From Daucus carota subsp. sativus (Eukaryota; Streptophyta; Magnoliopsida; Apiales; Apiaceae), in contig NC_030383.2 in NCBI RefSeq assembly GCF_001625215.2, forward strand, positions 59,386,949-59,450,948: DNA of 64,000 nt, in the 5' to 3' direction. Both the position numbers and the translations under genes were made by a program. This document shows, in pieces, positions 3,922 to 62,052 of the stretch. Each line of letters starts with the position of its first letter. The stretch's first letter is position 1. The notes beneath the pieces are model-generated. The model was not told the DNA's origin, did no database searches, and was given only the letters and a program-made list of their open reading frames with translations.

Positions 3922-4944
3922 TCAGGACAATAAACTCCCGAAAAGTAAGAACAACATCGCCAAGGATATCGAAATCCTAGTAGCTCTATCCACCATCTCC
4001 AACCTCCTCTCAATCTTCTGCAACTTCTCCCTCCTCTCTTTCCTCTTCACCAAGTACTTCTCATACATCTCTCTCTCCTCCCCATCTCTCCCTTGCCTCC
4101 TCTCTCCACTCTCCAAAGCATCTTGCAAGATCACCAAACCATCTCTCCCACTCAAACAACTCTTATCCAAATCCTCCATCTTGAAACTCACTTGCCCTAC
4201 ATGCACCTCCCCATTCTCTACTCTCCTCACGCACTCCACCTCAATCTTGCATTGCACCATCTCTCTCGACTTCCCTTTTCGGCCCCCTGCGAGAACTTTC
4301 ACGTACCGGACTTTTATGTCCCCCGTGACCCAATGCTGCCGAACCAAAACAGGCCTTAAACTCGACACGTTCGCCGCCATTCTTCCACTCGTGTCGATGA
4401 CAATCCAGCTCAGTTTCAAGTCTCGGCCTAGACGTGCCAAGAAGTTTTCGTCCTCGGTGTCGAATTTTCCAGGCAACTTCAATGCCTCGTCGCTTAAAAG
4501 ATCAACCGAAAACGGCGCATCAAGAAAAGCCGCCGAATCGGTATCTAGGGCAACAACTTTTGTAAAAAGCGGCTTATTTTGATAATGAATATCAACGGCC
4601 GAAACCAACTCGGTGGTCTTTCGGTGACCATCTGTGAAGAATTTGTGGTGAAGAGTAGGGAACGAGTCGCTGAAAAACGACCGGTGACCCGCGGGGAAAC
4701 TCGCGATCACCTCGGCGAGACGAGGGTTGTTTACGGAAGGCCAAATAGACTTGCAAATTTGCTTCCATAAATTCTCGCCTGTGCAAATATCATGAAGCTC
4801 GGATGAGACGCAACTCGTAGTGAAGAGGCTTTGAGGGTCGAGCTTTGCAAGAATATGTGTTTCTAGAATGTCGTCATGAAGTTCCGTCAATGCGGCGGCC
4901 GTAGATTCCACCGCGGCGGTGACGTCGGGAGTAGAGGCGGACAT
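3922..4944 (-). CDS. F-box protein, At2g27310-like (copy A)
   Basis: Single-exon gene of 340 codons. The F-box lies at residues 21-64 (ELHDDILETHILAKLD...LWKQIC), the module that docks SCF ubiquitin ligases through SKP1. The middle contains the block shared by all four paralogues here: SAVDIHY near 115 and LSWIVID...AANVSS...PVLV..HW near 180-205. The C-terminus is basic and charged, then hydrophobic over the last ~18 residues (ISISLAMLFLLFGSLLS), like a tail anchor. Length and intronless structure match the Arabidopsis At2g27310/At2g36090 group, whose substrates are not well defined. A TATAAAAG box lies about 70 bp upstream (5012-5019). The LTR element ends 10 bp beyond the stop codon, so it should alter the 3' UTR. 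Confidence 0.9.
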   Translation of the reverse strand: MSASTPDVTAAVESTAAALTELHDDILETHILAKLDPQSLFTTSCVSSELHDICTGENLWKQICKSIWPSVNNPRLAEVIASFPAGHRSFFSDSFPTLHHKFFTDGHRKTTELVSAVDIHYQNKPLFTKVVALDTDSAAFLDAPFSVDLLSDEALKLPGKFDTEDENFLARLGRDLKLSWIVIDTSGRMAANVSSLRPVLVRQHWVTGDIKVRYVKVLAGGRKGKSREMVQCKIEVECVRRVENGEVHVGQVSFKMEDLDKSCLSGRDGLVILQDALESGERRQGRDGEEREMYEKYLVKRKERREKLQKIERRLEMVDRATRISISLAMLFLLFGSLLS

Positions 4945-5011
4945 GGAGAATATATTCTACGTGATTTTAGCCTTGTGTAACGCGTATGCGTTCTGAAAAT
5001 GGAGTAGTACT

Positions 5012-12293: not shown

Positions 12294-13513
12294 TACAATA
12301 TAACACGATAATACATAAATCTCTAGAGCTAGCTAGTGTCTCAAAACTTAATGTCATTAAATTACAGATATCATATTGAAAAGTTAGGGTTTGTAGTCTC
12401 TTGGGAGTCAATTTTTTTAATTAGGTATATAGTTCCTCTGTCCAACCTTCATCTCGATTGATGAAGCCATCTGGCTCTTTTAACTTTTCTTCTATTTATC
12501 AGGTTTTTAATAAAATAAAAAAATCTGGTCCCTTTTTGGGTAAATATTTCTTGTTATGTACCTTATTGTCACAGTTGTTATTCGTCCTCATTTTTTTGAT
12601 CTTATTATATTACGATATATTTGTGTGATTTATTATTGATTACGATAATTTTCTTAAGAAAAACTTGTATGATATTTTGTTTAATCCTTAAGGCTCGCAT
12701 TAAATATGACACGACGTGGTGAATATTATAAAAGCTCACTTTTTATTAGTAAAAAATTGTTCATATTTTGAAGGCAATTGTTCCTCCAATATAGTTAATG
12801 TAATTGATAGTTATGAACATTGAGTAACAAATTATATTTATGTAAAGGTCCATTGCGATGCTATTCGTAGCTAATATGTACGTAGGTTGAATTGCTCGAG
12901 ATTAGATACGATTATAATACATTTTAAAGTATCTGCATAGTTGGTAATTGATCAATATCGCATTTCGTTAATTTAGTTGCAACCTGTTGGTGCTATTATT
13001 GGTTAACCGACGATAATCGTATTATAAATATAGAAAGGCGTAAAGCTTTTAGATCGAGATTAGATATATTGATATGCAAAGTACTGTACCTTTTGCGTCA
13101 TTAAGAATTCGTGATTCTCGTATTTCTTATTGCAATGTGTATATTAAAATCTTAGAACATTCTAGCCACACGTAGGGCCAAATGAGGCATGCCAGCACAA
13201 GAGAACTACGAGCAAGACACGTTATCTATTCAGATAATTTTAAAAAAGCGCTTCTTGTTTAAAATAAAAAATATATATAAGTAATAAGTAATTAAGATTT
13301 ATAAATCATTAAACTTTATGGAAAGAGGCCGGACTACTCAAACAAAATGTATTATCAGCCATTTAAAAGTATTTTATCTAAACAAGTGAAGAAAAGTAAA
13401 AGTCGGTTTTTTATCGGAAAAAATCTAAAGTGATTGTGCCCAAACAAGCACACAATCAATATTTAAAGGCTCATTCATGCACTCTCCTTCACAACATACA
13501 TTTGTGTCTAAAA
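12294..13513. other. Intergenic, promoter side of F-box copy B
   Basis: AT-rich spacer upstream of the F-box gene. No other gene or recognisable repeat was seen. Confidence 0.45.
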
Positions 13514-14527
13514 ATGGCTTTAAAAGTTCATACTCCCAACAATTTTGTGAATACCACGAAGATCACTGATCTCTATCCAGAGATCATGCTAGCCCATATC
13601 TTAACCCTAATCGATCACTCATCTCTAGCCTCCACTGCCCTAGCCTCAACACAGCTGCATGCATTGTGCAACCATGAATATATCTGGACTAAAATTTGCA
13701 ACTCCAAGTGGCATTCGACTAAATTTCCAGTTGTACGGGACGCCATCTCCTCATTCCCTGGTGGTCATCGCTTATTCTTCGCCGACGCGTATCTGATTCT
13801 TGAGTTCAGCAGTGACTATAAGTACTTGAGCTATAATCAGAGGATAAAACACCTGATATCTGCAGTGGATATACAGTTCGAACACAAGAATGTTTATTCG
13901 AAAGTTGATGTCATAGACACTACTAACGAAAGTTTCGCAAGTTCAGTTTTCGAGGTCGAGGTGCTAGACCGAACGAAGTTTGTTAGGTTACCAATGAAGA
14001 GCGAAGATGAGGATGACAGTCATATCTCAAATCTGAAAATGAACATGACATTGAGTTGGATCCTGATCGATCCAACTCAGAAACGGGCAGCTAACGTATC
14101 CAGTCAGCTGCCCGTTTCAGTGAGGCGACACTGGATTGGCGGTGACATAGAGGTAAAATACGCCATTGTCATGCCTCGCTATAGCGGAGCAGGTATGTCA
14201 GAGTTGGTGGAGATAAGAATAATTGTCATGCTCGAATGGGAGGAAGACAAGACAAAATTAAAGTTAAGGAAAGTGAGTCTACAAATTCGTGACATGGACA
14301 ATATTTGTTTGCAAGGGAGTGAGAGTTTGAGAATATTGCAAGAGGCTATTCAGTGCAGAACAAGAATAAAAGCACAGAGGGCTGAGGTCATCGATAAGTA
14401 CAAGATTTTTGTGAACAAGAAAAGGGCAAGAAGAGAAGGAAGACAAAAACGAAAAATTAAAATAACAGGCCCACTATTAGCTACCATTGTTGTGGGTTTG
14501 GTTATACTATGTTTTCGATGTTTTTGA
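13514..14527 (+). CDS. F-box protein, At2g27310-like (copy B)
   Basis: Single-exon gene of 337 codons. An in-frame ATG exists 84 bp upstream at 13430, but I chose 13514 because it sits in a good context (AAAATGGCT) and lines the N-terminus up with the paralogues; the upstream extension has no counterpart. The F-box is near residues 17-60 (DLYPEIMLAHILTLIDHSSL...IWTKIC), followed by SSFPGGHRLFFADA, SAVDIQF, and LSWILIDPTQKRAANVSS..PVSVRRHW. The C-terminus is very basic (KKRARREGRQKRK), then hydrophobic (GPLLATIVVGLVILCF), a probable tail anchor. Predicted SCF substrate adaptor; target unknown. It is the only plus-strand member of the four. Confidence 0.88.
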   Translation: MALKVHTPNNFVNTTKITDLYPEIMLAHILTLIDHSSLASTALASTQLHALCNHEYIWTKICNSKWHSTKFPVVRDAISSFPGGHRLFFADAYLILEFSSDYKYLSYNQRIKHLISAVDIQFEHKNVYSKVDVIDTTNESFASSVFEVEVLDRTKFVRLPMKSEDEDDSHISNLKMNMTLSWILIDPTQKRAANVSSQLPVSVRRHWIGGDIEVKYAIVMPRYSGAGMSELVEIRIIVMLEWEEDKTKLKLRKVSLQIRDMDNICLQGSESLRILQEAIQCRTRIKAQRAEVIDKYKIFVNKKRARREGRQKRKIKITGPLLATIVVGLVILCFRCF

Positions 14528-21409: not shown

Positions 21410-21412
<3 letters not shown>

Positions 21413-21597
21413 GATTGCTCAAAAAAGAACACCCTAAAAAGAAGAACACTTTATAATTGCATATAGAATCTTATCCAAAACTTGAATTAAATTCTAATTT
21501 TAAGCTAATTAACCTTTTATTATGAATAATAATAGTATCTGACATGTTTAACAATAAATATGAATTAAAAATAACATGATTTATGTAATATTAATCG

Positions 21598-22190: not shown

Positions 22191-23222
22191 CTAATTGGGA
22201 AAAACATTTAGGCTGACGATTAAGAAGACAAAAGCAAAGAAATAAGCAACCCATGAAAGTCTATACACCATGTTCAGCGTCCTTTCGGTCCTCTTTTTTC
22301 CTTCAATTTTCTTTCTTTTTAATTCCAAATATTTTTCATACGTCTCTTTCATTTCTCCTCCATTTGCTTTCTTTCTTTCACCTCTCTCCATGGCTTCCTC
22401 CAAAATTTTGAGAGACTTTTCTCCACTCAAACGCCTCATATGCATGTCCTCCATGTACATATTGAGCTCCCTGAATTTAACATATTTTCCTTCTTTACAA
22501 CCGAATGTCGCCACAATTCTACATTCGACAAGCTCCGACGAATTATCTCCCGAAAGAATTGTCGCAAAAATTACTTGTATGTCATATCCATTCCAATATG
22601 GTTGGACAGACACCGGCCCGAAACTCGACACGTTTACCGCGCGTTTTCGAGTCGGATCAATAACAATCCAACTCAATTTTAGGTTTTCTTGAAGCTCTAG
22701 CAATATGCACTTATCTTCATCACTCTCGAATTTTAACGGAATCTTCACGGTTTCTTTGTTCTCAAGCATGTCCACCCAAAACGAGAAATGCCGAAAGCTC
22801 TTGTCACCCGTGTTCGTAACCACTACTTTAGAAAAAATTAGTTCATCCCCGTAGTGTATATCAACGGCTGAAATTAGTTCCGGCATGTCGCCTTCAGAAA
22901 ACGGGGTACCCTGAGTACGTTTGGTTTGGTCAGGTCGGATTACAGGAAATGCATCGGAGAAAAAAGAGCGGTAGCCACCGGGGAACGTGGAGATCGTCTT
23001 TCGAACAAGAGGGTGTTTGATAGAATCCCACGTCAAGTCACAAATATCTCTCCACAAATTTTCTTTGTTGCAAAGATTGCGTAACATGTGAGAAGCCGAC
23101 GCTGCGCAGGCCAGCGATGCGCCATCGAATTTCGTTAATACGTGACTCTCTATCACATCCGTATGCACGGCGCCGATTGTTGTGGCCGCTCCGCCTTGAT
23201 TAAAAGAACTCGAATGATCCAT
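22191..23222 (-). CDS. F-box protein, At2g27310-like (copy C)
   Basis: Single-exon gene of 343 codons starting at 23222. The F-box is near residues 18-62 (AVHTDVIESHVLTKFDGASL..LWRDIC), followed by FPGGYRSFFSDAFP, ELISAVDIHYGDE and LSWIVIDPTRKRAVNVSS.GPVSVQPYW. The end is Lys/Glu-rich (KYLELKRKKIEGKK), then strongly hydrophobic (LSWVAYFFAFVFLIVSL), a likely C-terminal membrane anchor. It is closest by eye to copy D (shared GGAATTI.AVH N-terminus, NLCN/TLCN and ERKKA/LRKKA blocks). TATATATA at 23286-23293 is a suitable TATA box. Predicted SKP1-binding substrate receptor; target unknown. Confidence 0.9.
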   Translation of the reverse strand: MDHSSSFNQGGAATTIGAVHTDVIESHVLTKFDGASLACAASASHMLRNLCNKENLWRDICDLTWDSIKHPLVRKTISTFPGGYRSFFSDAFPVIRPDQTKRTQGTPFSEGDMPELISAVDIHYGDELIFSKVVVTNTGDKSFRHFSFWVDMLENKETVKIPLKFESDEDKCILLELQENLKLSWIVIDPTRKRAVNVSSFGPVSVQPYWNGYDIQVIFATILSGDNSSELVECRIVATFGCKEGKYVKFRELNMYMEDMHMRRLSGEKSLKILEEAMERGERKKANGGEMKETYEKYLELKRKKIEGKKRTERTLNMVYRLSWVAYFFAFVFLIVSLNVFPN

Positions 23223-31728: not shown

Positions 31729-32724
31729 CTATTCTTCAGCGAAGGGATTAGAGAAACGCCAAAGAAAATCCATAAATCTGTCCACAATATTTTCCTTTTT
31801 CACTTCATCTCTCTTCTTTCTCTTCAGATCAACAAATTTAGCATACATCTCTTTTTCTTCTCCTCCAGTTGCTTTCTTTCTTAATCCATTATGCAGAGCC
31901 TCTTTCAAAATCCTCAAGCTCTTTTCGCCATTCAACCGCGTCCAATCCATGTCCACGACGCATAAACTCAGCTCCTTAAGTTTGATATTTTTCCCTTCGA
32001 AACGAAATATTGCTGTCACTCTACACTCAACAAACTCTGTTGTGTAAATGCCTCTGTTATCACCCGAAACAATTGTCGCGTATTTCACCTTTATTCCACT
32101 CCCATCGACCCAGCATGGTCGCACAGATATCGGCCTCAAACTCGACACGTTGGCTGCCCGTTTTAATTTCGGATCAATAATAATCCAGCTCAATCTCAGC
32201 TTCTCTTCAAAATCCAAAATGCATTTCTTCTCGTCTCCTTCATATTTAATTGGCATTTTCGAAGTACCTTCTCCGTCAAGCAAGTCGATGCAGAACTGTA
32301 GCCCAAGAAAGTTACTATCACTCGTATCCGTCGCCTTTACATTACTGTAAACCGGATCATTACCATAGTACATATCAACAGCCGAGATTAGTTCCGAATT
32401 GTGTACTTGACCTATGTAGCTCCCCTCACTAGGATTCGGGCGAAGAAGAGGAAACGAATCGGAGAAAAAAGATCGGTAACCACCCGAAAACGTAGAGATA
32501 ATTTGTCGAACAAGAGGGTCTTTTATGGAATTCCATGTAGAATTACATAGATCTTCCCACAATTCATCTTGATTGCAAAGAGTGTGTAAAAGGTGGGAAG
32601 TAGAGGCCGTAGAGGCAAGAGCCGGGCCGTCGAATCTTGTTAAGATGTGTGTTTCGATGATATTTTGGTGCACGGCGGTGATTGTGGTGGCTGATCCGCC
32701 CTGTTTATCAGAGTTTGAATCCAT
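31729..32724 (-). CDS. F-box protein, At2g27310-like (copy D), lacking the C-terminal hydrophobic tail
   Basis: Single-exon gene of 331 codons from ATG 32724. The F-box is near residues 18-61 (AVHQNIIETHILTRFDGPAL..LWEDLC), then FSGGYRSFFSDSFP, ELISAVDMYYGND and LSWIIIDPKLKRAANVSSLRP. It is nearest to copy C. After the Lys-rich segment the protein ends DRFMDFLWRFSNPFAEE, without the strongly hydrophobic last segment seen in copies A, B and C, so this product is probably soluble. A TATATA box at 32801-32806 lies about 80 bp upstream. Expected role: SCF adaptor; target unknown. Confidence 0.9.
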   Translation of the reverse strand: MDSNSDKQGGSATTITAVHQNIIETHILTRFDGPALASTASTSHLLHTLCNQDELWEDLCNSTWNSIKDPLVRQIISTFSGGYRSFFSDSFPLLRPNPSEGSYIGQVHNSELISAVDMYYGNDPVYSNVKATDTSDSNFLGLQFCIDLLDGEGTSKMPIKYEGDEKKCILDFEEKLRLSWIIIDPKLKRAANVSSLRPISVRPCWVDGSGIKVKYATIVSGDNRGIYTTEFVECRVTAIFRFEGKNIKLKELSLCVVDMDWTRLNGEKSLRILKEALHNGLRKKATGGEEKEMYAKFVDLKRKKRDEVKKENIVDRFMDFLWRFSNPFAEE

Positions 32725-32800
32725 TCGAATTCGAGCTTCTTTGATATTTCAGTTTATTTCTGTGATTTGAAAGTGAATAAGTAGATATAAATTCGGCAAT

Positions 32801-38719: not shown

Positions 38720-39397
38720 AAATGTGCAATGGTCCAATTCCATTACTTCTGATCCTTGAGAATCTTTTGGCAATAGTGTTCTCCAGATTTATCTTCTAAG
38801 CAATGCTTAATGCTTGTTGGGTTACTTTATTTGTCTTATGATAATTAATGATTGTTGTTTCGAAATTGAAGTTGAAATAAGAGTTTTTTGCTTCCCAATC
38901 ACCCTACTATTGTTACTATTGTTAAGAAGATATCATGTTAAGTGACCAGTTCTCCAAAAACCTCGAGCATGCAAGCTTACTTGGTTTATCATAAACAATT
39001 GAGCGCATGTTTGTCGTCGTGCACATTGAAAAAGAGATTACAGGGGACAAGATCCGCTATTAGTGCTAATTACGTTTGTTTAATATTTTGAACGTCAAAG
39101 AAGAGCATCATTTGTAGAACTCAAGACACCTGCGAATGCATATCAAAAGCAGTATCAAGAAACAAAGTAAATAAGTTGCACCATAATGTGTTGAACTATG
39201 TTGTACCCGACTGTCAGACTGAAGAATTTATATTCTATCGTGATGAGAGAGAGTCGAACCAAATACCTCCACTGGGCTATTCCATCGCTCTGGTTAACCA
39301 AAAAATATTAATATTATTAGTATCAGAGTTTTAGCTATTAGACCTGAATCTTTGTTTCCAAGTTTTTGAAAGAAAAACTCGAAAACTGGGAGTGATC
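38720..39397. other. Spacer between AKR copy 1 and the NLR relic
   Basis: Contains the AKR 3' UTR and AT-rich DNA. No further gene was seen. Confidence 0.45.
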
Positions 39398-42300
39398 ATG
39401 GTCGGAGTGTCTGACATTCCATGCGTGGGTAAGGTTGTGGACAGAATATCTGATGCCACAGTTAACGCACTGTTTCGCGGGTTGCGTTATATGTTCTGTT
39501 ACAAGGCTCTAGTTGATGAACTTAATTCTGAAATTAGTAAAGTTAACATTGAGGAGGTGAGGGTGTCGAGGAAAGCTGCTGCGGAAAGAGACAATGGCAA
39601 AATAATCTATGATCATGTATTGGAGTGGCAGAAAGAGGTGAAAGAAATCCAGGAGAGTACTAATGAGTTTTCGCCTTCATGGAGGTGCATTCAGAGTCTG
39701 CCAATTCCTAATCCCATTTCCCGTTTTCGACAGGGTAGGCAGGCGGTAAAGAAGGCCAAAAAGGTGAATGAACTCCTGGACTCCGGAGTGAAGCTTATGG
39801 AGAATGAAATTGCTTATCATCCAGCGGTTGTAAATGAGCCAAAACCCGAAACTGCATACCAAAGATTTCAATCCAGAGAAGGTGCTTATGGGAAACTATG
39901 GGATGCTCTGGTGACTGAAGGCAGTGCTCCGATTCTTGGCCTCTATGGAATGCCTGGTGTTGGCAAAACTAGAATGATGGAGCAAATTTGGAGTGAAGCC
40001 AAGGAGAAAAAGATCTTCAAAAAGGTCGTAAGAGAAGACGTGGGCAGTGAAACGTTGGATGTGATCAAAGTACAAAATCAGATTGCAGGGTATCTGGAAT
40101 GCAATTTTGAGTCTCAAGATAATGTGGACCGGAGAGCTTCTCAGCTGAAACATAGTTTATTGAATAAAGGCAAGATCCTCTTGATATTAGACGATGTGTG
40201 GAGGGAGATCCCCTTTGATGTTATTGGAATTCCATGTGAGGATGAAATTAGTTCCATGGGTAGTAAGATCCTCCTGACATCGCGAGAGAAAGATGCATGC
40301 TTGCGCAACAAATGCAAAGATCCTGTCAAGATTACAATCCTGACAGAAGAAGAAGCGTGGGATTTGTTTAAAAACACTGTTGGGGCTTGTCAGATTGAGT
40401 CACTGCAGGATGAATTCCTGGCGCGGAGAGTTTCTCTTAAATGTTCAGGTTTACCCCTTGTCATTCGTGCAGTTGGGAAAGCATTGTTATTTGCATCTCA
40501 CAATTCATGGAAAGATGCCCTAGCTCAGCTTGAGAAGGGAAGTGTCGAAAAAATTGCAGGCATAGATCCACATGTATATGCTTGTTTTAAACTGAGCATC
40601 GACAGGTTAGAAGAGGATGCCAAGTCATGTCTTTTTTTGTGTTCCTTGTTTCCTGAAGATGCTGACATTTACGTCAGGAAGTTGATCTAGTTAGCAAAAG
40701 GCGCTCAGCTTGTACTTGACGGTGAGTCTAGAATATGTGCCATGGTTGATATTCTCAGAGCATCTTCTTTGTTGCTTGACTGTGAAGAAGATCATGTAAT
40801 GAAAGTGCATGACCTCATCAGAGACACTGCAAGAACTTTGGCTGTCAGAGACCCAAAGTACGCTTTCTTATTCTTAAGATGTGGCTCGCGGTTGCCTGAT
40901 GATGCTGATTATGGTACTCGGAAACTATTGCATTTACATCAGGAGAAGAATGAGATTCAATATCCTAATGATCTGGTGTGCCCAGATCTGCATAGCCTGT
41001 GGCTACTATGCAATAAACAGGCACAACTGTTCTCAGGTGGCTTTTTCAATATGTTTAACAATCTCAGATTTTTATTAATCGAAGGTATGGTTTCTTCTTT
41101 CGAGCTGCAATTCTCTCTTCAACCATTGGCTCAACTTAGGACGCTTATTCTAGATGATTGTGACATTACTCACATTAATCAGGCAAAAAATAATTGTTTC
41201 CCCGAAAAACTAGAAACTCTTTGCTTCTGGAATTGTGATCTCCCAGTGCCTCTAAATTTACCAAACCTGAAATATCTCCGAAAGCTGGAAATAGAGCAGT
41301 GGAGAGGTGGAGTGCAGATGGTTCCAAATACCATTTCTAGTTTATCAAGTCTTGAGGAATTGCATATACCAAATGCATTCGAGATTCGGGGTGATATATC
41401 TGCTGTTCCCGAGCCCACATTGGCCGAGATCACTAAATTGACCAGTCTGAAAAGTTTGCGGCTCTTCTTCAGGGTTCCTGAATCTTTTCAAGACACAAAG
41501 GTATTTCAAAATTTACTTGAATTTAATATATGTGTCCCAAGGCCAAGTAAAGATGTTTGTTATCTTTTAAATACCGGTGTTTCTGTCAAGAGATCTCTTG
41601 AGTTAAATGGCAATCAGTTAGAAGCCTTGGTAATTCTGGTAGAGAGGGCTGAACAAATTCTCTTGCGGTGCACTGATATTAATGTGAGTAGCATTTGGCA
41701 TCGAAACAGAGAAGCATTTGCAGACTTGAGATACCTGTACATTCACTACTGTGAGATTGAGTTTCTAGCACGGATGTCAGAGGATATGATTCGAAGGATG
41801 TCAGAGGATATGATTCGGCCTAGTCTTCAACCATCGATATCTTTCTCTAAACTAAGCATTTTACAAATTAGAGGCTGCTCTGCAATGAAATACCTCTTCT
41901 GCAGCAGAGTTGCGAAATGTCTTATGCAACTTCAACAGCTCTGCATAGATGACTGTCCCCTTTTGGAAGCAATAGTCACGAATGAAGGCACGAGTGACGG
42001 ATACAGCATCAACTTGTTCAAATTAAAATCATTAAAGCTAACAAAGTTGCTAAGACTCAAAAGCTTTTACAGGGAAGAGAAAGATATGGACGATTCTGTC
42101 ATTTCGTCTGTACAATTTCAGCCTCTCTTTGATGATACGGTATGATATAATTCAAGTAAAGTATGTAAGCTTAGTTCAACTTTTATTGTTTTCAATTATG
42201 CGTGAAACCATTACCAGAAGTGTATATTAACGATGAGATATGTGCAACAGGTTGCGTTCCCTTGGTTGGAAGAACTTCATATTGTGGATTCGAGTCATAT

Positions 42301-43900
42301 AAGTGATATTTGGGGGAAACAAAATTATGAAGACAATTTATCCTCCTTTTGCAGACTCAAAAGCATTAATTTATGGGAGTGTAATAAACTTGAAAGTGTG
42401 ATTCCACATGCCATGATGCAGAGGCTGCAGAATCTGGTATGCCTAGACGTATCATTCTGTAGATCTTTGGTATCTGAAATTGGTACCAATGGCTGCAATG
42501 TTGATGCAAGTCCACTGGTAGCACTACGTCGTATGCATCTCCGCGGCTTGCCTTGTTTGACAAAGACAGGGTTGAACTCTACGGAGCATTCTGGAGCCAT
42601 GACTCTGTATCCTAATCTCCAAGATTTAAATATATGGAATTGCAATAGCTTGAGAAACGTGTTCTCTCCTCGTATAGCTAGAGATCTTACGCGACTTGAG
42701 AAAATGTGTGTAGAACACTGCAAGGCGATGGGAGAGATTATTGGACAGCGTGAACAAGGGGACATCACGGATATGATCCTGTTCCCTAAGCTGTCGATTT
42801 TGAAGCTCGACTCTTTGCCAACTTTAAGCAGCATTGGGTGTTACAAGGTATTATAATCATCTCTAAGCTAATCAAATTTACCAGCCTAAGTTGGCTTTTA
42901 GAACTGTGACTGACATTGTTTTTGTAGGTTGAATTCGCGAACTTGGTGGATTTGGAACTCAGAGGTGTTAAATTTAACTTTGAAGAAATGGAATTTGGCA
43001 GAGATGATTCCACTAGCGGACTCATACGTTTGCATGTAAGTTGTGATAACAACATTCAACTCCCAAGTAAATGGAAATGTAGATTACATAATCTGGAAAC
43101 AATGGTATTAAATCACTGTTGGTGGCATGAACTGAACTCTCTGCAATTCCAGAGATTAAAAGTGCTCAGTGTTAGTAACTATGGAGGCGCTACCCTTTTC
43201 TCCTTCTCAATTTTCAAAAGTCTACAACTCCGCAAATTAGTAGTATCAAATTGTGCTTTACTGGAAGATATTGTGGAGGATGCAAGGGGGTGATGAACCT
43301 TCTAGCGCGCAGAAGATAACTATTACACTCTACAAGCTTGAATCAGTGATTCTTCAAGATTTACCAAAGCTCAGAACTTTTATCCACACTGCAAATTATG
43401 ATTTTCATGTGCCGGCCTTAAAGAAGGTGAAAGTTAGTAACTGCGGACTCACTACTCTTTTCACCTGCTCTGTCTTTGCTAAACTCCAACAACTCAAGAG
43501 ATTAAAGGTATGGAAATGCCGATTGTTGGAAGACATTGTTGAGGATGCAAGAGGTGATGAAACTCATGTCACATGTGACAAGATTATCACCCTGTCGCGA
43601 CTCTCTTCAGTTATGCTTCGTGATTTGCCAAACCTCAAAAGTTTCAGTCGCTCTGTAAGGTATGGTTTTAATATGCCAGTATTAGATGAGCTTTATCTGC
43701 AGAAGTGTCCGCGGGTGGAGATGTTTACTTCCTTGGAAACCAGCACAGGACTGGTATCAGTATATAGTGAATGGCACAAGGGGGAAAAAGTTGCAGACCT
43801 GAACAACTACATAACACAAAATCGCGAAAGAGGAAGTGATTTCAACAATAGTGCTGGAGAGCCTAATTCAAGAACACGAAACAGAAGCAGAGAGAGTTGA
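39398..43900 (+). pseudogene. CC-NBS-LRR disease-resistance gene (At4g27190-like), two disabling lesions
   Basis: Exons 39398-42139, 42251-42847 and 42928-43900 with GT-AG borders. Order: N-terminal coiled-coil-like part, P-loop GMPGVGKT (about residues 184-191), kinase-2 LLILDDVW (about 262), RNBS-B GSKILLTSRE, GLPL motif CSGLPLVIRA (about 350), and VHD in the MHD position (KVHDLIRD, about 469), then leucine-rich repeats. Lesion 1: an in-frame TAG at 40688-40690 between GLPL and MHD, where a few residues also seem missing. Lesion 2: a run of five G (43286-43290) shifts the frame in exon 3; the paralogous repeat later in the same exon (EDIVEDARGDE) shows that four would keep it open. Intact relatives are cytosolic immune receptors. 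It lies between AKR copies 1 and 2. As written it can give only the N-terminal half. Confidence 0.88.
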
Positions 43901-51865: not shown

Positions 51866-54674
51866 ATGACGATCGGCTCAGGAGGATCTGGCATCGTGGG
51901 TATGTGTAAATCTTTCATTTTTTTCATGTTTGTGCTCATATATGTATGTATATTCACTTTTCAGTACTTTTGAAATCTGGGTTTGTAAAAAGTTTGAATC
52001 TTTTTGTGTTCTTGATTTGGATTCTTTGGAATTTTTTATGATCTGGGTATTGTATGTTAATTTGATTTTTTTGGGTGTTTTTTTATTTGATTGAGTTTGT
52101 CGGTGTTTCTTGATTATATATATGTTAATTGATTGATAAGTGAGGGAGTGTTTTGATGATTTATGAATTGTTATGTTTAAAATTTTTTAGAGTTTTTTTA
52201 GTGAATTACCCCGTGTTTAATTAATGTTTCTTAGAAGAAAAAGTGTGGAATGAAGGAAATAAAAATTTATGAAAATGGGGATGATTTATACAGTTTTTAG
52301 CTCTACCTAGCTATAATGGCAAAGGCTGGGCAAAACCCTTTGAATTGTTGGGAATTACTTTTTTTTTAACATTGCTTTCTGAGACCCTATAACCTTCTTT
52401 CGGAGTAGAAAGAAGTGTGCTTGATGATACTATGATAGTTAGGAACTGGAAAGCTGCTTATTGCCAGCTCTGATAGGGGGGATTTGGCAATGGTGGGTGA
52501 GAAACTAGGGTTTGGGATAGATTTATTAAATTTCCGCTGCAAGATAAAAACAGTTCAAAAATATAGTTGGTTTACTTTCTTAATTCAAATAAAATTAAAT
52601 AGATAGTGAGAATGCCTTACATGTAATTATCACAGATTATTTCCTGAAGTGAAGGACTATAGATAGTCTCTAATTAATTGGCATACAGAGTTTATGGTAC
52701 ACTCTATTCTGTCATGATGTCAATGTGACATCAAATAGTAGTTGTTGGCCATTTGATCTAAGCCATTCAGCATCATGGTGTAAGGCAGTTCCCAGAGTTT
52801 TCCATTTTTATGTATTTATATATATATATATATATATATATTTTTGGGGGGGGGGGGGGGGGGTTGACTTGGTGTTGGTTGTATGTACTGTGCAGTTTGT
52901 TTCATTAGATTTCTATGCTTTCCAAGAGCAATTTCTCTCTGCTGCAAGTAACACTGGGGGATCGCAATCTGTTAGAATTACAAGAAATCGTGATGAGTAT
53001 TTTGTATGTGAGACTAGTTAGAGTTTCTTGCACCAGTCATTGTATATATTCAAGTGTGAGTTAATGAGTTTAACTAAATCTATGAATTTATAGCTGCAAC
53101 CCTAAAACATGTCACTAAAAGTCTTGCGTAAATGTGTATCATGATTATAGCCACATATTGATGCAAGGACTTTAACGTTCATTAAATTGAATGCTAAAAC
53201 AGATTAGGAGCAGTAAAACTGCGATTCTAATTTAAGTACATGGGATCAAAATTTCCTATAATAATGCTACCATAATATGTACTTACTTGTGTTTGTTATA
53301 TTAATAGAGGTAGCAGGGAGGATTTACTAAATATATCAAAGTAATGCAGGAATATATACTTCTCTCCATACTAAATTTAAATATACATCTGATACAGAAT
53401 GGACCAACACGGAGCATTGTTGTTTGTACATACTTTTGCTCTTATCGTAATTAATTTTATTCATGTTTTTCCATTTATAACTGCAGTACCGAGGAACTTC
53501 CGATTGCTAGAAGAACTTGAACGTGGAGAGAAGGGTATTGGTGATGGTTCTGTAAGCTATGGGATGGACGATGCAGATGACATATACATGCGCTCATGGA
53601 CAGGAACTATAATTGGTCCTCATAATGTAAGTTGATTCTGCACCGACATTTATCACAAGCACTTTCCTTTGCTTATAAAATCCAGTCAGTCAACACTTTT
53701 TCCTTTCTTATTCATTTGCTAAATGATACTCTTACCATTTGATGCTTAAAACTCTGTTGTGATCATCTTGGCAGTTTTTATGCATCTTCACTCCTAGTAA
53801 CCTATATAATTTAATGGCTTTATATTGTAATTGTAATTTAATATATTTTTATACTGCTCTAGACTGCACATGATGGTCGCATTTATACGGTGAAGCTGTT
53901 TTGCGACAAAGATTATCCAGACAAGCCTCCTACTGTTCGTTTTCATTCTCGCATCAATATGACCTGTGTGAATCATGATACTGGATTGGTAAGGTTCTTG
54001 ACATTGTTCTTTTCACTTTTTGGACATGCTTGTAGAAATTTGTTATGGTCCATAAGTAGTAAAGTATGCTGTCTTCCAGAATGTTTTAAAATAGCAGGAT
54101 GCATGCATGTAAGAATTAACAGAAAATGAATAGTATCTCAATCTTTTTCCAAATGATAGTGCTTGCAATGATTCAGTAATTTGGTGCTATGATTATGAAT
54201 TATATTCAATCTTTCGGTTGACTGCCATTGGCTAGAAATTTTAGATGACATTGTTTAACTATAAAATCATCTTTTTCTCGTAAAATTGGAGGGTTGTCTC
54301 TCTTTCTCCCTATATACATATAATGTATAGTTAACTTCTCTCTATGGGCACAAAATCAATGTCACATCTACATTCAAGTGTGTTCTACATGTATTATATC
54401 TAAGTTAAGAACCATCTATGGTAGAAGCCTACAAGGTATCTTGGAGTCTTTCGAGAAAGTAAACAGCCAACTGCTACCTCTCTGTGTTTCATTACCTCTA
54501 TCATAACTAAACCAAGACTATAAATGGCAACAGGTTGAAGCAAAGAAGTTTGGGATGCTAGCTAATTGGCAACGGGAATTCACAATGGAACACATATTGA
54601 CTCAGTTGCGCAAAGAAATGACCACCTCTCAGAACCGAAAGCTTGCCCAACCTCAAGATGGAACCTACTTCTAA
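51866..54674 (+). CDS. UEV1: Ubiquitin-conjugating E2 enzyme variant UEV1 / MMS2 type, complete
   Basis: Exons 51866-51899, 53487-53626, 53863-53988 and 54534-54674 with GT-AG borders encode 146 residues. The protein follows plant UEV1 throughout: [72 protein letters not shown] and a [13 protein letters not shown] end. The HPN motif and active-site Cys of true E2 enzymes are absent, as expected for the variant subunit that pairs with UBC13 to build Lys63-linked ubiquitin chains in DNA-damage tolerance and signalling. Intron 1 is long (1.6 kb) and holds a (TA)n followed by an 18-base G run. No lesion was seen. Confidence 0.96.
52818..52863 (+). repeat. (TA)n followed by an 18-base G homopolymer in UEV1 intron 1
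   Basis: TA units (52818-52841), T5, then eighteen consecutive G (52846-52863). It is G-quadruplex-capable on the coding strand. Confidence 0.85.
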
Positions 54675-57113: not shown

Positions 57114-57152
<39 letters not shown>

Positions 57153-57155
<3 letters not shown>

Positions 57156-57608
57156 ATAGTATCAAATAAAAACTTTTTTAAGTTACAAACTTACAAACTT
57201 TTTTTTATTCTCCTATCGTGTTAATCCTTAGTCATAGAATGTATCCATGTTGAAAAATCTTGAAAAATCATCACAATTTTTAGAAAAAACGAGTAAATAA
57301 ATCGTGCATTCAACACATTTGTAACTAGGGTTCAACATCGTGTGTTGAACACTAATTATCATTATGTTGAATATATCAATAAAGATGCTTAAACTATACC
57401 TCTGGGGTTTGGGTAGGGTCTAGAATCATAAATATTAGTCATATAATACGTTTAACTTAGTTCTTACATTAAAAAATTAGTTTATGTACTTCTCCAACAC
57501 AATTTTAATCGATGTTCAACAAAATATGTTAAGAAAATGTTGAACTCAAATTATATATGTGTTGGACGCATAAAGTTTGTAAGTTTGTAAGTTTGTACCA
57601 GAACTCAC

Positions 57609-57611
<3 letters not shown>
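57153..57611. mobile_element. (TA)n-bounded module 1 (459 bp)
   Basis: Left end GGGATAGTATCAAATAAAAAC; right end (reverse complement) GGGGTGAGTTCTGGTACAAAC. Subterminal ACAAACTTACAAAC repeats are inverted at the two ends. Non-coding. Confidence 0.6.
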
Positions 57612-57664
<53 letters not shown>

Positions 57665-57668
<4 letters not shown>

Positions 57669-57751
57669 CCAAGTTTTAGATGAGATTCTATATTCGATTC
57701 CAAAGTGTTCTTCTTTGTTCTTCTTTTAAGAGTGTTCTGTTTTGAGCAATG

Positions 57752-57754
<3 letters not shown>
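57665..57754 (-). mobile_element. (TA)n-bounded module 2, truncated end of the 61141 family
   Basis: The 90 bp are the reverse complement of the first ~90 bp of 61141-61547 (GGGCATTGCTCAAAACAGAAC...AAAACTTGGATTA). The rest of the element is missing. Confidence 0.75.
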
Positions 57755-57833
<79 letters not shown>

Positions 57834-57898
57834 GGGCTGTTATACAGCCACCGTTAGATAAGGAACCACCAGATCTGGGCCGTTGGATGACAAAGACT

Positions 57899-58036
57899 CC
57901 CCGCAATGAAACATTGCGGGTACTCAAGACCCCGCAATGTTTCATTGCGGGTACTCAAGACCCCGCAATGTTTCATTGCGGGTACTTAAGTCCCTGCAAT
58001 GAAACATTGTGGGTACTTCAGTCCAACATTGCGGGG
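57899..58036. repeat. Palindrome array, cluster 1
   Basis: Four ~22-bp palindromes at 57899, 57930, 57961 and 57992 (exact 31-bp steps) and a half copy at 58024-58036. Loop triplets are AAA, TTT, TTT, AAA. Confidence 0.95.
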
Positions 58037-58457
58037 AACTCTGAAACATTTTACTTCCCTAAACTATTCTTCCACTACTTTAGTTTTAGTTAACATTTTT
58101 ACTTTCATTTTAAATTTTAAATTATTTTTATTCATTTTAAATATACGATTATCTTCATTAATTCAATATATATATATATATATATATTAAAATTTAAATT
58201 TAAATATTATTATTCAAAATAATTATATCACTAGAATGTATAATAATATTAAATTATTTGTATATCACAAATATTTTAAAATATTTAATTGTTTATAATT
58301 TTAAATTACAAAATTATTTTTTCTTAATATTTTTTGAAAATTTTAATTATTTTATATGTTATATTTGTTTAAAATTTTAATTTTAATTATTATACTAATA
58401 CATTATATCACCCCGCAACAAAATTATTTGTAGACTTGTGACTATCCCATCTCCCAT

Positions 58458-58577
58458 CCCCGCAATGAAACATTGCGGGTACTAATACTCCCCGCAATGT
58501 TTCATTGCGGGTACCAATACACCCCGCAATGTTTCATTGCACAGAACTTTTACTCCCCGCAATGAAACATTGTGGGG
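58458..58577. repeat. Palindrome array, cluster 2
   Basis: Four copies at 58458, 58490, 58522 and 58555 (32-33-bp steps). Loops AAA, TTT, TTT, AAA, the same order as in cluster 1. Confidence 0.95.
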
Positions 58578-59307
58578 ATCGTAATTAATGTTTTTACCTA
58601 CCAGTAACAACAAAATTACTCTATCACCTTCTCTCATTTCATTTTTTGAATTTAATTTATTATTTGTTGTTTGATTTTTTTTATTATTAATGTAATACAT
58701 TATGTTTTTGTTTGATATTATTTTATTATGATTTGAAATCATTTGAATTTTTAAAAACATAAATAAAATATTAATTAAATTTTATGTTTTTTGTTTTGAA
58801 ATTATTTTATTATAATTCGAAATCATTTGATTTATTATTAAAATAAATTATATTATTAATTAAAGTATGTTTTTAATTGAGTTTTTAATTTTTTGGTATT
58901 GTTTTATTATTATTCGAAATCATATGAATTATTATTAAAATTAAAGTATATTATTAATTATATTATATAATTAATTTAATTTCTTTTTATGAAATTGTTT
59001 TATTTATTCGAAATCATTTGAGCTAATATTAAAATTAAAAAATATTTTATTATTCATTTTATTAATTAAATTAAATTATTTTGTTATTAATATAAAATTG
59101 AATTTTTATAACCATAATTTTTAAATAAATATATAGAAAAATAACATTCTTATTCATAATGTCAAATTAATATGAAATAAAATTAAGTTAAATTACCAAT
59201 TTCAATATACAATAAAATTTATTTATTATTTATCATTCACAATGTCGTAGAACCGGAAAGTGCAGTGTTCGAATCGTGAGCTATGTGCCTTGGAGTATAA
59301 CATACTG

Positions 59308-59500
59308 CCCGCAATGATTCATTGCGGGGTATCTTTTAAAAAATAAACTAAAACAAATACCCTATCCAACTCACTCAGCCACCTTTCAAATGAAAATATA
59401 AAACCCCACAATGATTCATTGCGGGGTACATAATCCCCACAATGTTTCATTGCGGGTATGAAATTTAGGTAAACTATCCCCGCTATGCTTCATTGCGGGG
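59308..59500. repeat. Palindrome array, cluster 3
   Basis: Four less regular copies at 59308, 59404, 59435 and 59478. Some stems carry a mismatch (CACAATG, GCTATG). Confidence 0.9.
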
Positions 59501-60279
59501 AAGATAATATTATTTTTTTATTCCAAATATTTGAAAAAGTTCAATAAATTGTAAGAATTTATTCAACTTGAGCTAGAGAATATTAATATATGTGTTCTTA
59601 TTAATATTTAAATAATTTAAGTGACATATAATAATAATTTAGATATTTTTCTTTGATTTGTATTTGTTCGAGTATATTTGAAAAAACTACTTGTACATAC
59701 GAGAATTGGAAAAAGTTAATAATTTGTCAAAAATTATACTAATTATATGCGTTCTTACTAATATTCAACCAATTTAAGTGATGTTTATTCATAATTTCGA
59801 TATTTACCTTTGATTTGAATATGTTCGAGTACATTTGAAAACACTACCAGTACCAAAGAGAATTGGAAAAAGTGAATAATTTGTAATAAAATAATTCAAC
59901 TTTAACTACAAAAAGTTAATTAACCTTAAAAGAGCATGTGAGCTACATAGTTCAAACATGTGTTCGATATATTTAGGAAACAAGCAGTAGTATTCAAATA
60001 AGTAAAATTATTAGTATAACAAAATGACATAAAATAGTTAATAAGATAAAAATATATAGAAATTAGATAGAAAATTATTCATATATTGTACTAAGAAAAA
60101 TCAATATTTTCTCTTATTTCTAACCTTAACAATATACACATTTTTTTTTTGACAAACTTTAACAATATTTTTAGTTTAATTTAAAAATGTTAAATGATAA
60201 CAATTTAATATAACAAACTCTACAAGGCATATGATATGTGAAGGAAGGGGTAAAAGGGTCCAGGGAATAAAATGAGACT

Positions 60280-60385
60280 CCCTGCAATGAAACATTGCGG
60301 GGACTTGTATACCCGCAATGATTCATTGCGGGGTCTTTCATACCCGCAATGTTTCATTGCAGGGTTGCAATGTTTCATTGCAGGG
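60280..60385. repeat. Palindrome array, cluster 4
   Basis: Copies at 60280, 60312, 60343 and a shorter one at 60367, about 95 bp from the right end of the module. Confidence 0.95.
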
Positions 60386-60478
60386 AGCCTTTTTTTTAGC
60401 CGTAGGATCACAAAATGGAGGGACGTGATCTGGTGGCTGGAAACCGGACCCTATCCACCGGTGGCTGTGAACCGGTTT

Positions 60479-60524
<46 letters not shown>

Positions 60525-60528
<4 letters not shown>

Positions 60529-61128
60529 CTTGCTCCAGTACAAACTCCTTACTGTACAAACGTACAAACCAGTGATTATGACAATAATATTTAGTGATTA
60601 GCAGATTTTAATTTAACAAATACATACATACATCCATCATCACCGCCACCACAATCACCTCCAAATCACCACCACGACGACTGCCCAGCGCCTCTCTCTC
60701 TCTCCACCATCCACCACCAACCACCACTGCCCAACACCTCTCTCTCTCTCTCTTACCCACCACCACCAACCACCACCACCACCACCACTACCAGTGGCTC
60801 TCTCTGTGTGGTTGTTCGCTCACCGATTAGTGCTATACACACACAAACACACACATTCACCACTTCTTTTCTCATCTCCCTCAATCGTGTCTCTCTCCCT
60901 CAATCGTGTTTCTAGCACTGCCCTCGCATCGGCGTCGCGGCTGCTGCCGGCCGCGCTGCACCACCACTCGGCTATGCCGCCCCATAAGTGCTCCCCTCCC
61001 CTTATCTCTCCATCAGACCCCCTTGGTAGATTTAGTGATTCTGTTCAATCATTTAGTGATTCTTTTCAAGTCATTTAGTGATTGTTTGTACGTTTGTACA
61101 CTAAGGAGTTTGTATTTGAGCACTTGCC
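60525..61128. mobile_element. (TA)n-bounded module 4 with GC-rich interior
   Basis: Left end GGGTCTTGCTCCAGTACAAAC; right end (reverse complement) GGCAAGTGCTCAAATACAAAC. Subterminal TACAAACGTACAAAC and TTTAGTGATT repeats are at both ends. The middle (60640-61020) is CCACCA- and CTCTCT-rich, with a very GC-rich piece near 60920-60985, unlike the surrounding DNA. The open frames there are not recognised. Confidence 0.65.
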
Positions 61129-61140
61129 TATATATATATA

Positions 61141-61544
61141 GGGCATTGCTCAAAACAGAACACTCTTAAAAGAAGAATAAAGAAGAACACTTTGGAATCG
61201 AATATAGAATCTTATCTAAAACTTGGATTAAATTCTAACTTTAAGCTAATTAACCATTTATTATGAATAATAATAGTATCTAGCATGTTTAACAACAATT
61301 ATGGATTAAAAATAATATGATTCCATGTGATATTAATCATGTAAAGAATATATATATGATTCTATTCTGGATTCTGTTTTGGATTCTATTCTGGATTCTA
61401 TAATATTTCATATTAATAATTTGGATAGATTTAGATGTTTGATTTCATATATTAAGTTTAGTTAGTGCTTAACTATGTAATTATAATCATAACAAATCAT
61501 TTTTTATGAAAAGAAAAAGTGTTATGATAGTGTTCTGTGTTGTT

Positions 61545-61547
<3 letters not shown>
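61141..61547 (+). mobile_element. (TA)n-bounded module 5, full-length relative of 21410-21870
   Basis: GGGCATTGCTCAAAACAGAAC at the left and AGTGTTCTGTGTTGTTCTTT at the right, an imperfect inverted pair. Contains a local repeat of GGATTCTATTCTGGATTCT. Non-coding. Confidence 0.75.
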
Positions 61548-61595
<48 letters not shown>

Positions 61596-61597
<2 letters not shown>

Positions 61598-61992
61598 CTA
61601 ATGATCAAATACATACCACTAAATGTGAACCTTAAATAGGAACTAAGAGAAACAAGGCCTATATGACATCACCCACCCTCTAAATGTCATCACCCACCCC
61701 CTAGATGTCATCACCCATCCGGGGACTACTCTCGCCCCCACTCAATCCACCTGGGACCACTAAAATCTCATTATGGCTCCAGACAGGACTCAGAGGGGCT
61801 CTAGACAAGCTGAGAGCCAATGCTTTACCCCACCCCCTCCTCACTAGGGCCCACCCCCGTCCACTAGGTCCCACCTAGGCCTTGTCAAGGCCCACCTAGG
61901 GGCCCATTCTTGAGGCCCACAAATCATCCTATGCTCTTAAAAGCATTATTTCACATTTAAGGATGTATTTAGTAGTTTGTACTGGAGCAAGA

Positions 61993-62015
<23 letters not shown>
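61596..62015. mobile_element. (TA)n-bounded module 6 with C-rich interior
   Basis: Left end GGCTAATGATCAAATACATACC; right end (reverse complement) GTCTTGCTCCAGTACAAACTA after a (CT)n tract (61992-62015). Inside, ATGTCATCACCCACC repeats three times at about 22-bp steps (61661-61730), and the following 200 bp are rich in CCCACC and GGCCC. Confidence 0.6.

Positions 62016-62052
<37 letters not shown>

Follow-up and report, generated by a model that had tools for sequence, protein, structure and literature searches.

Arrays of short palindromes near the ends of a probable Mutator-like element bounded by TA microsatellites

Introduction

The systems closest to the locus studied here are Mutator-like transposons of two kinds, and the account given here follows the available passages of the papers cited. 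SaTar elements are non-autonomous, target microsatellites, stand in modular rows, and are described from guayule, rice, sorghum, and citrus (PMC5907723). Their targeting is argued to differ from plain cut-and-paste, and circular intermediates with homologous recombination were put forward as a speculative proposal (PMC5907723). Pineapple elements are of the same TA-targeting kind (PMC8449440). Traits of the SaTar/MuTAnT class include members outside microsatellites with 9-10-bp target-site duplications, and an autonomous relative that carries a mudrA-like transposase and the same terminal inverted repeats (TIRs).

The second kind comprises foldback or composite-TIR elements such as Muta1 and Tm1, for which a transposase of the Mutator/Phantom kind is characteristic. 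An imperfect palindrome at the terminus and nine 12-bp subterminal tandem repeats make up the TIR of Muta1 from Aedes, and short subterminal tandem repeats were found in 10 of 12 long-TIR Aedes families (PMC5225508). Palindromes are mentioned in the foldback-type ends of FARE1 of Arabidopsis (PMC4486113) and in the ends of Mcmar, a Tc1/mariner-like element of a nematode (PMC3169594). The TIRs of plant MULEs are said to harbour transposase binding sites (PMC3310237).

Results

The gene content of the window, that is, the whole stretch of 64,000 nucleotides analysed, marks it as plant DNA (F-box, NB-ARC, and RPS2-like leucine-rich repeats). Four long frames spread over 29 kb, at 3922-4956 (-), 13400-14527 (+), 22191-23222 (-), and 31729-32748 (-), are mutually alike by eye; Pfam returned an F-box for the first two and no match for the last two. 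A disease-resistance gene with NB-ARC and RPS2-like LRR parts runs over consecutive frames at 39335-43900, and the stops between these frames may represent introns, a pseudogene, or an assembly error. At 52841-52865, a (TA)12 tract is followed by a few T and then by a G run.

The palindromes lie in an element of about 2.65 kb with a GC content of 26%, designated E3 (57832..60480). On three points E3 agrees with the SaTar/MuTAnT elements. TA microsatellites border it on both sides, (TA)38 on the left (57755..57830) and (TA)22 on the right (60481..60524). Its TIRs are imperfect, with an alignment score of 89 against a shuffle maximum of 44; the left tip occupies 57832..57898 (+) and the right tip 60386..60480 (-), and both contain ACAGCCACCG and CCACCAGATC, a motif that occurs within the window in these two ends only. 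Finally, E3 stands in a row of unlike stretches linked by TA tracts, from 57114 to 62051, none of which is interrupted. We consider it probable that E3 belongs to the TA-microsatellite-targeting, non-autonomous Mutator-like class (SaTar/MuTAnT/Micron), an assignment made by class resemblance at a site where the TA tracts hide any target-site duplication. The first-pass annotation had known of no named family for this arrangement; the host element fits into a published class.

The interior of E3 is AT-rich, and the 2-kb bin that covers most of the element has 22% GC. It contains a further (TA)11 tract at 58166, tandem repeats of 84-97 bp at 58676-59082, and a 157-bp tandem duplication whose copies are 83% alike (59587..59893). 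A small hairpin, GGCTGT-TAT-ACAGCC, lies in the left tip (57835..57849, exact bounds set by eye) and was not seen by eye in the right tip. None of the 22 overlapping E3 frames of at least 40 aa looked transposase-like on inspection by eye, and a Pfam search of nine frames of the window returned no transposase.

Four of the eight stretches examined exceeded the shuffle maximum in the TIR test. Besides E3, these were E5 (60525..61128), with a clear TIR (85 vs. 35), E7 (61596..62015), with a weak one (40 vs. 34), and, barely, E1 (57152..57611; 53 vs. 52). The TIRs of E2, E6, F21a, and Fx were not above shuffles at the bounds used, some of which are uncertain. E6 (61141..61547; 52 vs. 62) lies between TA tracts and has a MuTAnT-like left tip, and by eye its left end is of one family with E2 (57664..57754), a 91-bp end fragment with no TIR of its own. 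Stretches of this TA-bounded family, with the tip GGGCATTGCTC or GGGGATTGCTC, are found at 57664-57754, 61141-61240, and 21410-21510; they are alike by eye, and their tips resemble the MuTAnT TIR mask by eye. By eye, the two ends of this E2/E6 family are oriented towards E3 and E5, so neither represents one element split by E3 or E5.

Some neighbours carry short repeats of their own. E5 has three subterminal copies of AATCACTAA at 22 and 21 bp, near two helical turns, and E7 has repeats near both ends, one of 21 bp (2.9 copies, 61658-61717) and one of 20 bp (2.3 copies, 61829-61875). The 8-bp tandem repeat AAGTTTGT at the end of E1 (3.1 copies, 57573-57597) is not helically phased.

Sixteen copies of GCAATG-NNN-CATTGC were found in E3, 11 exact and five with one mismatch in the 6+6 core (GCAATGNNNCATTGC). 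The units are close to CCCGCAATG-NNN-CATTGCGGG and form four clusters of four. Cluster 1 (57899..58014, + strand; GCAATG at 57903, 57934, 57965, and 57996) has spacings of 31, 31, and 31 bp and the loops AAA, TTT, TTT, and AAA. Cluster 2 (58458..58577, + strand; 58462, 58494, 58526, and 58559) has spacings of 32, 32, and 33 bp and the same loop order. Cluster 3 (59307..59500; 59311, 59408, 59439, and 59482) has spacings of 97, 31, and 43 bp and the loops ATT, ATT, TTT, and CTT, and cluster 4 (60280..60385, - strand; 60284, 60315, 60346, and 60367) has spacings of 31, 31, and 21 bp and, read on the + strand, the loops AAA, ATT, TTT, and TTT. Half-unit relics follow cluster 1 (CATTGCGGG, 58027..58035) and precede cluster 2 (CCCCGCAA, 58411..58418).

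The palindromes are real and non-random. With a 3-nt loop, a stem of at least 9 bp, and at most one mismatch, E3 contains 13 hairpins, compared with a mean of 0.115 and a largest value of two in 200 dinucleotide shuffles of E3; seven hairpins are perfect, compared with a mean of 0.005 and a largest value of one. Additionally, E3 contains 10 copies of CCCGCAATG and 12 of CATTGCGGG, and neither occurs in the remaining window. The exact and one-mismatch matches carry this point; a scan that allowed three mismatches gave 37 matches against 23.55 expected, a number reached in 1 of 100 shuffles, and on its own counts as weak evidence.

The description in the first-pass annotation largely stood. Its sixteen hairpin palindromes were confirmed far above shuffles, and so was the loop order common to clusters 1 and 2; its distances of about 70 and 95 bp from the element ends were measured as 67 bp (left end to the start of cluster 1) and 95 bp (end of cluster 4 to the right end). 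Two statements were too uniform. The spacing of 31-33 bp holds for nine of the twelve within-cluster spacings, the other three being 97, 43, and 21 bp, and the stems, reported as near-perfect over 9-10 bp, keep all nine inner pairs in seven of the 16 units and six to eight of them in the other nine.

When the left end was compared with the inverted right end, the alignment continued inward from the tips and matched the palindromes one by one. The spacers of clusters 1 and 4 had identities of 0.60-0.70 in inverted and 0.40-0.50 in direct orientation (six pairs), and both clusters have a tandem period of 31. Because their spacers match in the inverted register, the most fitting interpretation is that clusters 1 and 4 form the opposite arms of a single composite TIR; this also gives E3 the tandem subterminal repeats of foldback/composite-TIR elements. 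The arrays would thus be tandem repeats of a composite TIR in which each repeat is a 21-bp palindrome, as judged from the alignment.

We interpret clusters 2 and 3 as additional copies of the array inside the element. We also considered them as relics of nested copies with tips of their own, and rejected this origin, since the tip traces inside E3 are weak: the gap of 97 bp within cluster 3 yielded two short fragments (p 0.04 and 0.01), and the stretch between clusters 3 and 4 yielded a third (p 0.05), all uncorrected over 16 tests. A derivation of the palindrome from the GGGCATTGCTC tip of the E2/E6 family was likewise rejected; the common part is CATTGC only, and the G run lies on the opposite side (by eye).

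The arms differ far less than the DNA between them. In 84 between-cluster pairs, drawn from all units except the truncated one at 60367 (15 units), arms differed at 2.8% of non-CpG sites and at 25% of CpG sites. The 10-nt spacers, compared ungapped between clusters, differed at 51% of positions (11 pairs, leaving out cluster 2 spacers of 11-12 nt and cluster 3 spacers of 22 and 76 nt). With gaps, spacers of 8-14 nt had a between-cluster identity of 0.55 direct and 0.54 inverted (29 pairs), compared with 0.50 after shuffling, and a within-cluster identity of 0.75 (seven pairs). Changed arm sites in all 16 units amounted to 10 of 64 at CpG and 5 of 224 elsewhere, and all ten CpG changes were transitions. 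We read this pattern as arms that probably stayed constant while the family moved and then decayed as methylated DNA in this copy; the CpG sites of the palindromes would accordingly have been methylated. Homogenisation among the units could be a partial source of the contrast between arms and spacers.

The shared loop order of clusters 1 and 2 had been explained in the first-pass annotation by duplication of a whole four-unit block, and this explanation found no support. Corresponding spacers of the two clusters have identities of 0.64, 0.64, and 0.58, about as high as the 0.42-0.73 of non-corresponding spacers; an old block duplication that was later homogenised may nevertheless have occurred. 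The same order would arise by chance in 1 of 16 cases if loops were random, so block duplication is not needed. Compensatory evolution of the stems was rejected as well, as the 16 units contain one compensatory double change, located in the truncated unit.

Among the 16 loops, seven are TTT, five AAA, three ATT, and one CTT. Units 1 and 2 of cluster 1 are identical in their arms and in the following 10-nt spacer (28 of 28 sites), and yet all three loop bases differ, AAA versus TTT. To judge from these sites, a single inversion of the loop between palindromic arms is likelier than three joint transversions; the ATT loops leave a stepwise route open, by which the change may also have come about.

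At 10.5 bp per turn, the spacings of 21, 31-33, and 43 bp lie within 0.14 turn of whole turns, and the spacing of 97 bp is off by 0.24. The chance that both odd spacings (43 and 21 bp) would fall near whole turns is about 0.08, as tested post hoc, and most of the short spacings are tandem copies of one another. Whole-turn phasing, even with the E5 and E7 repeats, is suggestive only.

As DNA, the three single units that were folded had energies of -10.1 to -10.5 kcal/mol. Folding z values of the cluster pieces ranged from -5.0 to -12.8 for DNA and from -6.0 to -12.9 for RNA, compared with -0.8 and 0.0 for two control stretches of E3. Where the arms are intact, AAA-loop and TTT-loop units are complements of each other along their full 21 bases. 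We rejected the idea that the loop order had been selected for maximal stability: in RNA folding, the real order ranked fifth-equal of 16 in both clusters 1 and 2. As other orders fold more stably, selection for folding is not apparent.

Discussion

We tentatively favour the reading that the palindromes serve as phased sites at which a dimeric transposase or helper protein binds, within the composite TIR of a TA-targeting Mutator-like transposon, which we regard as plausible and hold with clearly less confidence than the class membership of E3. In this mechanism, each palindrome would bind a symmetric (dimeric) transposase or helper, spacings near whole turns would place the dimers on one face of the DNA and thereby draw the two ends together, the arrays would grow and shrink through tandem copying, and hairpins would sometimes extrude and flip their 3-nt loops. 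The binding-site reading is favoured by the position of clusters 1 and 4 in the TIRs, by the constant arms beside near-random spacers, and by the near-whole-turn spacings; the subterminal repeats of E5 and E7 near two turns and the precedents of Muta1, Tm1, and plant MULEs also favour it. Against it stand clusters 2 and 3, which are far from the ends of E3, the out-of-phase spacing of 97 bp, and the unphased 8-bp repeat of E1. Moreover, homogenisation instead of binding could have conserved the arms. A binding array was already among the suggestions of the first-pass annotation, and the composite TIRs, the arms, and most of the short spacings now speak for it, with the binding itself putative.

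The main rival, which we consider a serious possibility, is a neutral minisatellite in a dead or passive element, where slippage and hairpin-driven template switching would multiply the unit with no protein to read it, and where recent copying, hairpin-templated correction, and exchange among units would keep the arms alike. Tandem copying did happen, as the alike or identical spacers within clusters (mean 0.75) attest, and E3 contains the other tandem duplications of 84-97 and 157 bp. The loop flip points to hairpin or template-switch events, and the arms are decaying at CpG sites (10/64 vs. 5/224 at others), all of which fits a neutral array. However, plain copying and drift would not leave near-constant arms beside near-random spacers, for which homogenisation is needed; clusters 1 and 4 stand in register within the two TIRs, and the two odd spacings also lie near whole turns.

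Two further explanations give the hairpin itself a role. Arrays of cruciforms or single-strand hairpins might act as signals for replication- or recombination-linked mobility, for example under the circular-intermediate model offered for SaTar targeting in the available passages of PMC5907723, where circular intermediates and homologous recombination remain a speculative proposal. The folding of single units at about -10 kcal/mol as DNA, the AAA/TTT flip, which suggests extrusion or template switching, and the 22% GC of the bin over most of E3 are consistent with such a role, but the arms are conserved in sequence and not just in pairing, the sole compensatory double change lies in the truncated unit, and at least one inner pair is lost in nine of the 16 units, so we find it improbable. 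Alternatively, transcripts of the clusters might form 21-bp stems between AAA and TTT units, with loops of about 10 nt, and feed small-RNA silencing. In its favour, the RNA of the clusters is much more stably folded than shuffled controls (z -6.0 to -12.9), and in clusters 1 and 2 an AAA unit and the TTT unit next to it are complements across the 21-mer, without a mismatch in three of four pairs when only intact arms are counted; MITE-derived miRNAs are known in plants, according to the available passages. Against this, the actual loop order shares fifth place among 16 in stability, and Rfam returned no match in the window at gathering thresholds; a hairpin RNA is the least probable of the explanations considered. 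Hairpin formation as such, also proposed in the first-pass annotation, gained indirect support from the loop flip and from folding.

Returning to phased binding sites, a bolder extension would be that phased palindromic ends extrude in vivo and leave the flips as a record, and that TA-targeting Mutator-like elements, including E5 and E7, use whole-turn subterminal arrays for end pairing; we consider this extension rather unlikely. Such ends bear on how Mutator-like elements choose TA microsatellites. Regularly spaced, near-identical palindromes would lend themselves to direct binding and footprint tests, and the loop flips would serve as natural traces of hairpins that had extruded in nuclear DNA.

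Comparison with Known Systems

In its setting, E3 is closest to SaTar, whose TIR elements also lie between TA tracts in rows without nesting; it differs in that the guayule and rice families listed are 380-1900 bp long and that a palindrome array is not described in the available passages (PMC5907723). MuTAnT of Medicago shares the TA-microsatellite target and foldback-like modular TIRs, but its members are mostly 200-300 bp, and the available passages do not describe an array of short palindromes (PMC4486113). The MuTAnT mask GGGGTTTGCTAGAACA is similar by eye to the tips of E6 and of F21a, the stretch at 21410, and not to the tip of E3 (PMC4486113).

In the structure of its ends, E3 is nearer to composite-TIR elements. 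Tm1, a Mutator/Foldback element of root-knot nematodes, likewise has composite TIRs in which the number of tandem repeats varies, but the repeats are of 13-15 bp and are not described as palindromes in the available passages (PMC3169594). Muta1 differs in its spacers of 3-4 bp, in its 8-9-bp target duplications, and in repeats that the available passages do not describe as palindromes (PMC5225508). Plant MULEs with multiple TIRs carry extra internal end sequence, a possible parallel to clusters 2 and 3; according to the available passages, however, they repeat whole long TIRs, whereas E3 repeats the arrays only, with weak tip traces (PMC3310237). Unlike those of E3, the repeat periods of Muta1, Muta5, and Tm1 are about 14-16 bp, as given in the available passages, and do not correspond to whole turns.

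In En/Spm (CACTA) elements, TNPA binds arrays of a subterminal motif near both ends. E3 resembles En/Spm in having short-motif arrays near both ends; the superfamily, motif, and tips are different, and E3 has no CACTA tip. For the flipped loops, the nearest likeness is in plastid DNA, where Kelchner and Wendel reportedly described minute inversions in hairpin loops in 1996. There, too, the sequence between palindromic arms flips, but the loop is of about 25 bp, compared with the 3-nt loops of E3 in a nuclear-type transposon, according to the available passages of PMC2903610.

The core-plus-arm pattern CCCGCAATGNNNCATTGCGGG had no match in viral contigs and occurred at one site each in 10 prokaryotic contigs, with about four expected in 257 Gb at even base composition. 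At least one of six E3 sequence strings was matched in 76 papers; among the 20 of these that were listed, only a 10-base string was found, in papers on other subjects. The first-pass annotation had known of no such arrangement, which is correct in part. Tandem repeats in Mutator-like ends are published for Muta1 and Tm1, and, in the available main-paper passages of the literature searched, palindrome arrays were not found in such transposon ends apart from the mentions for FARE1 and Mcmar; identical short palindromes arrayed at 31 bp were not met there. As far as these passages extend, subterminal arrays in which near-identical short palindromes recur about every three turns and carry flipped loops are unusual and appear to represent a new form in a known transposon class.
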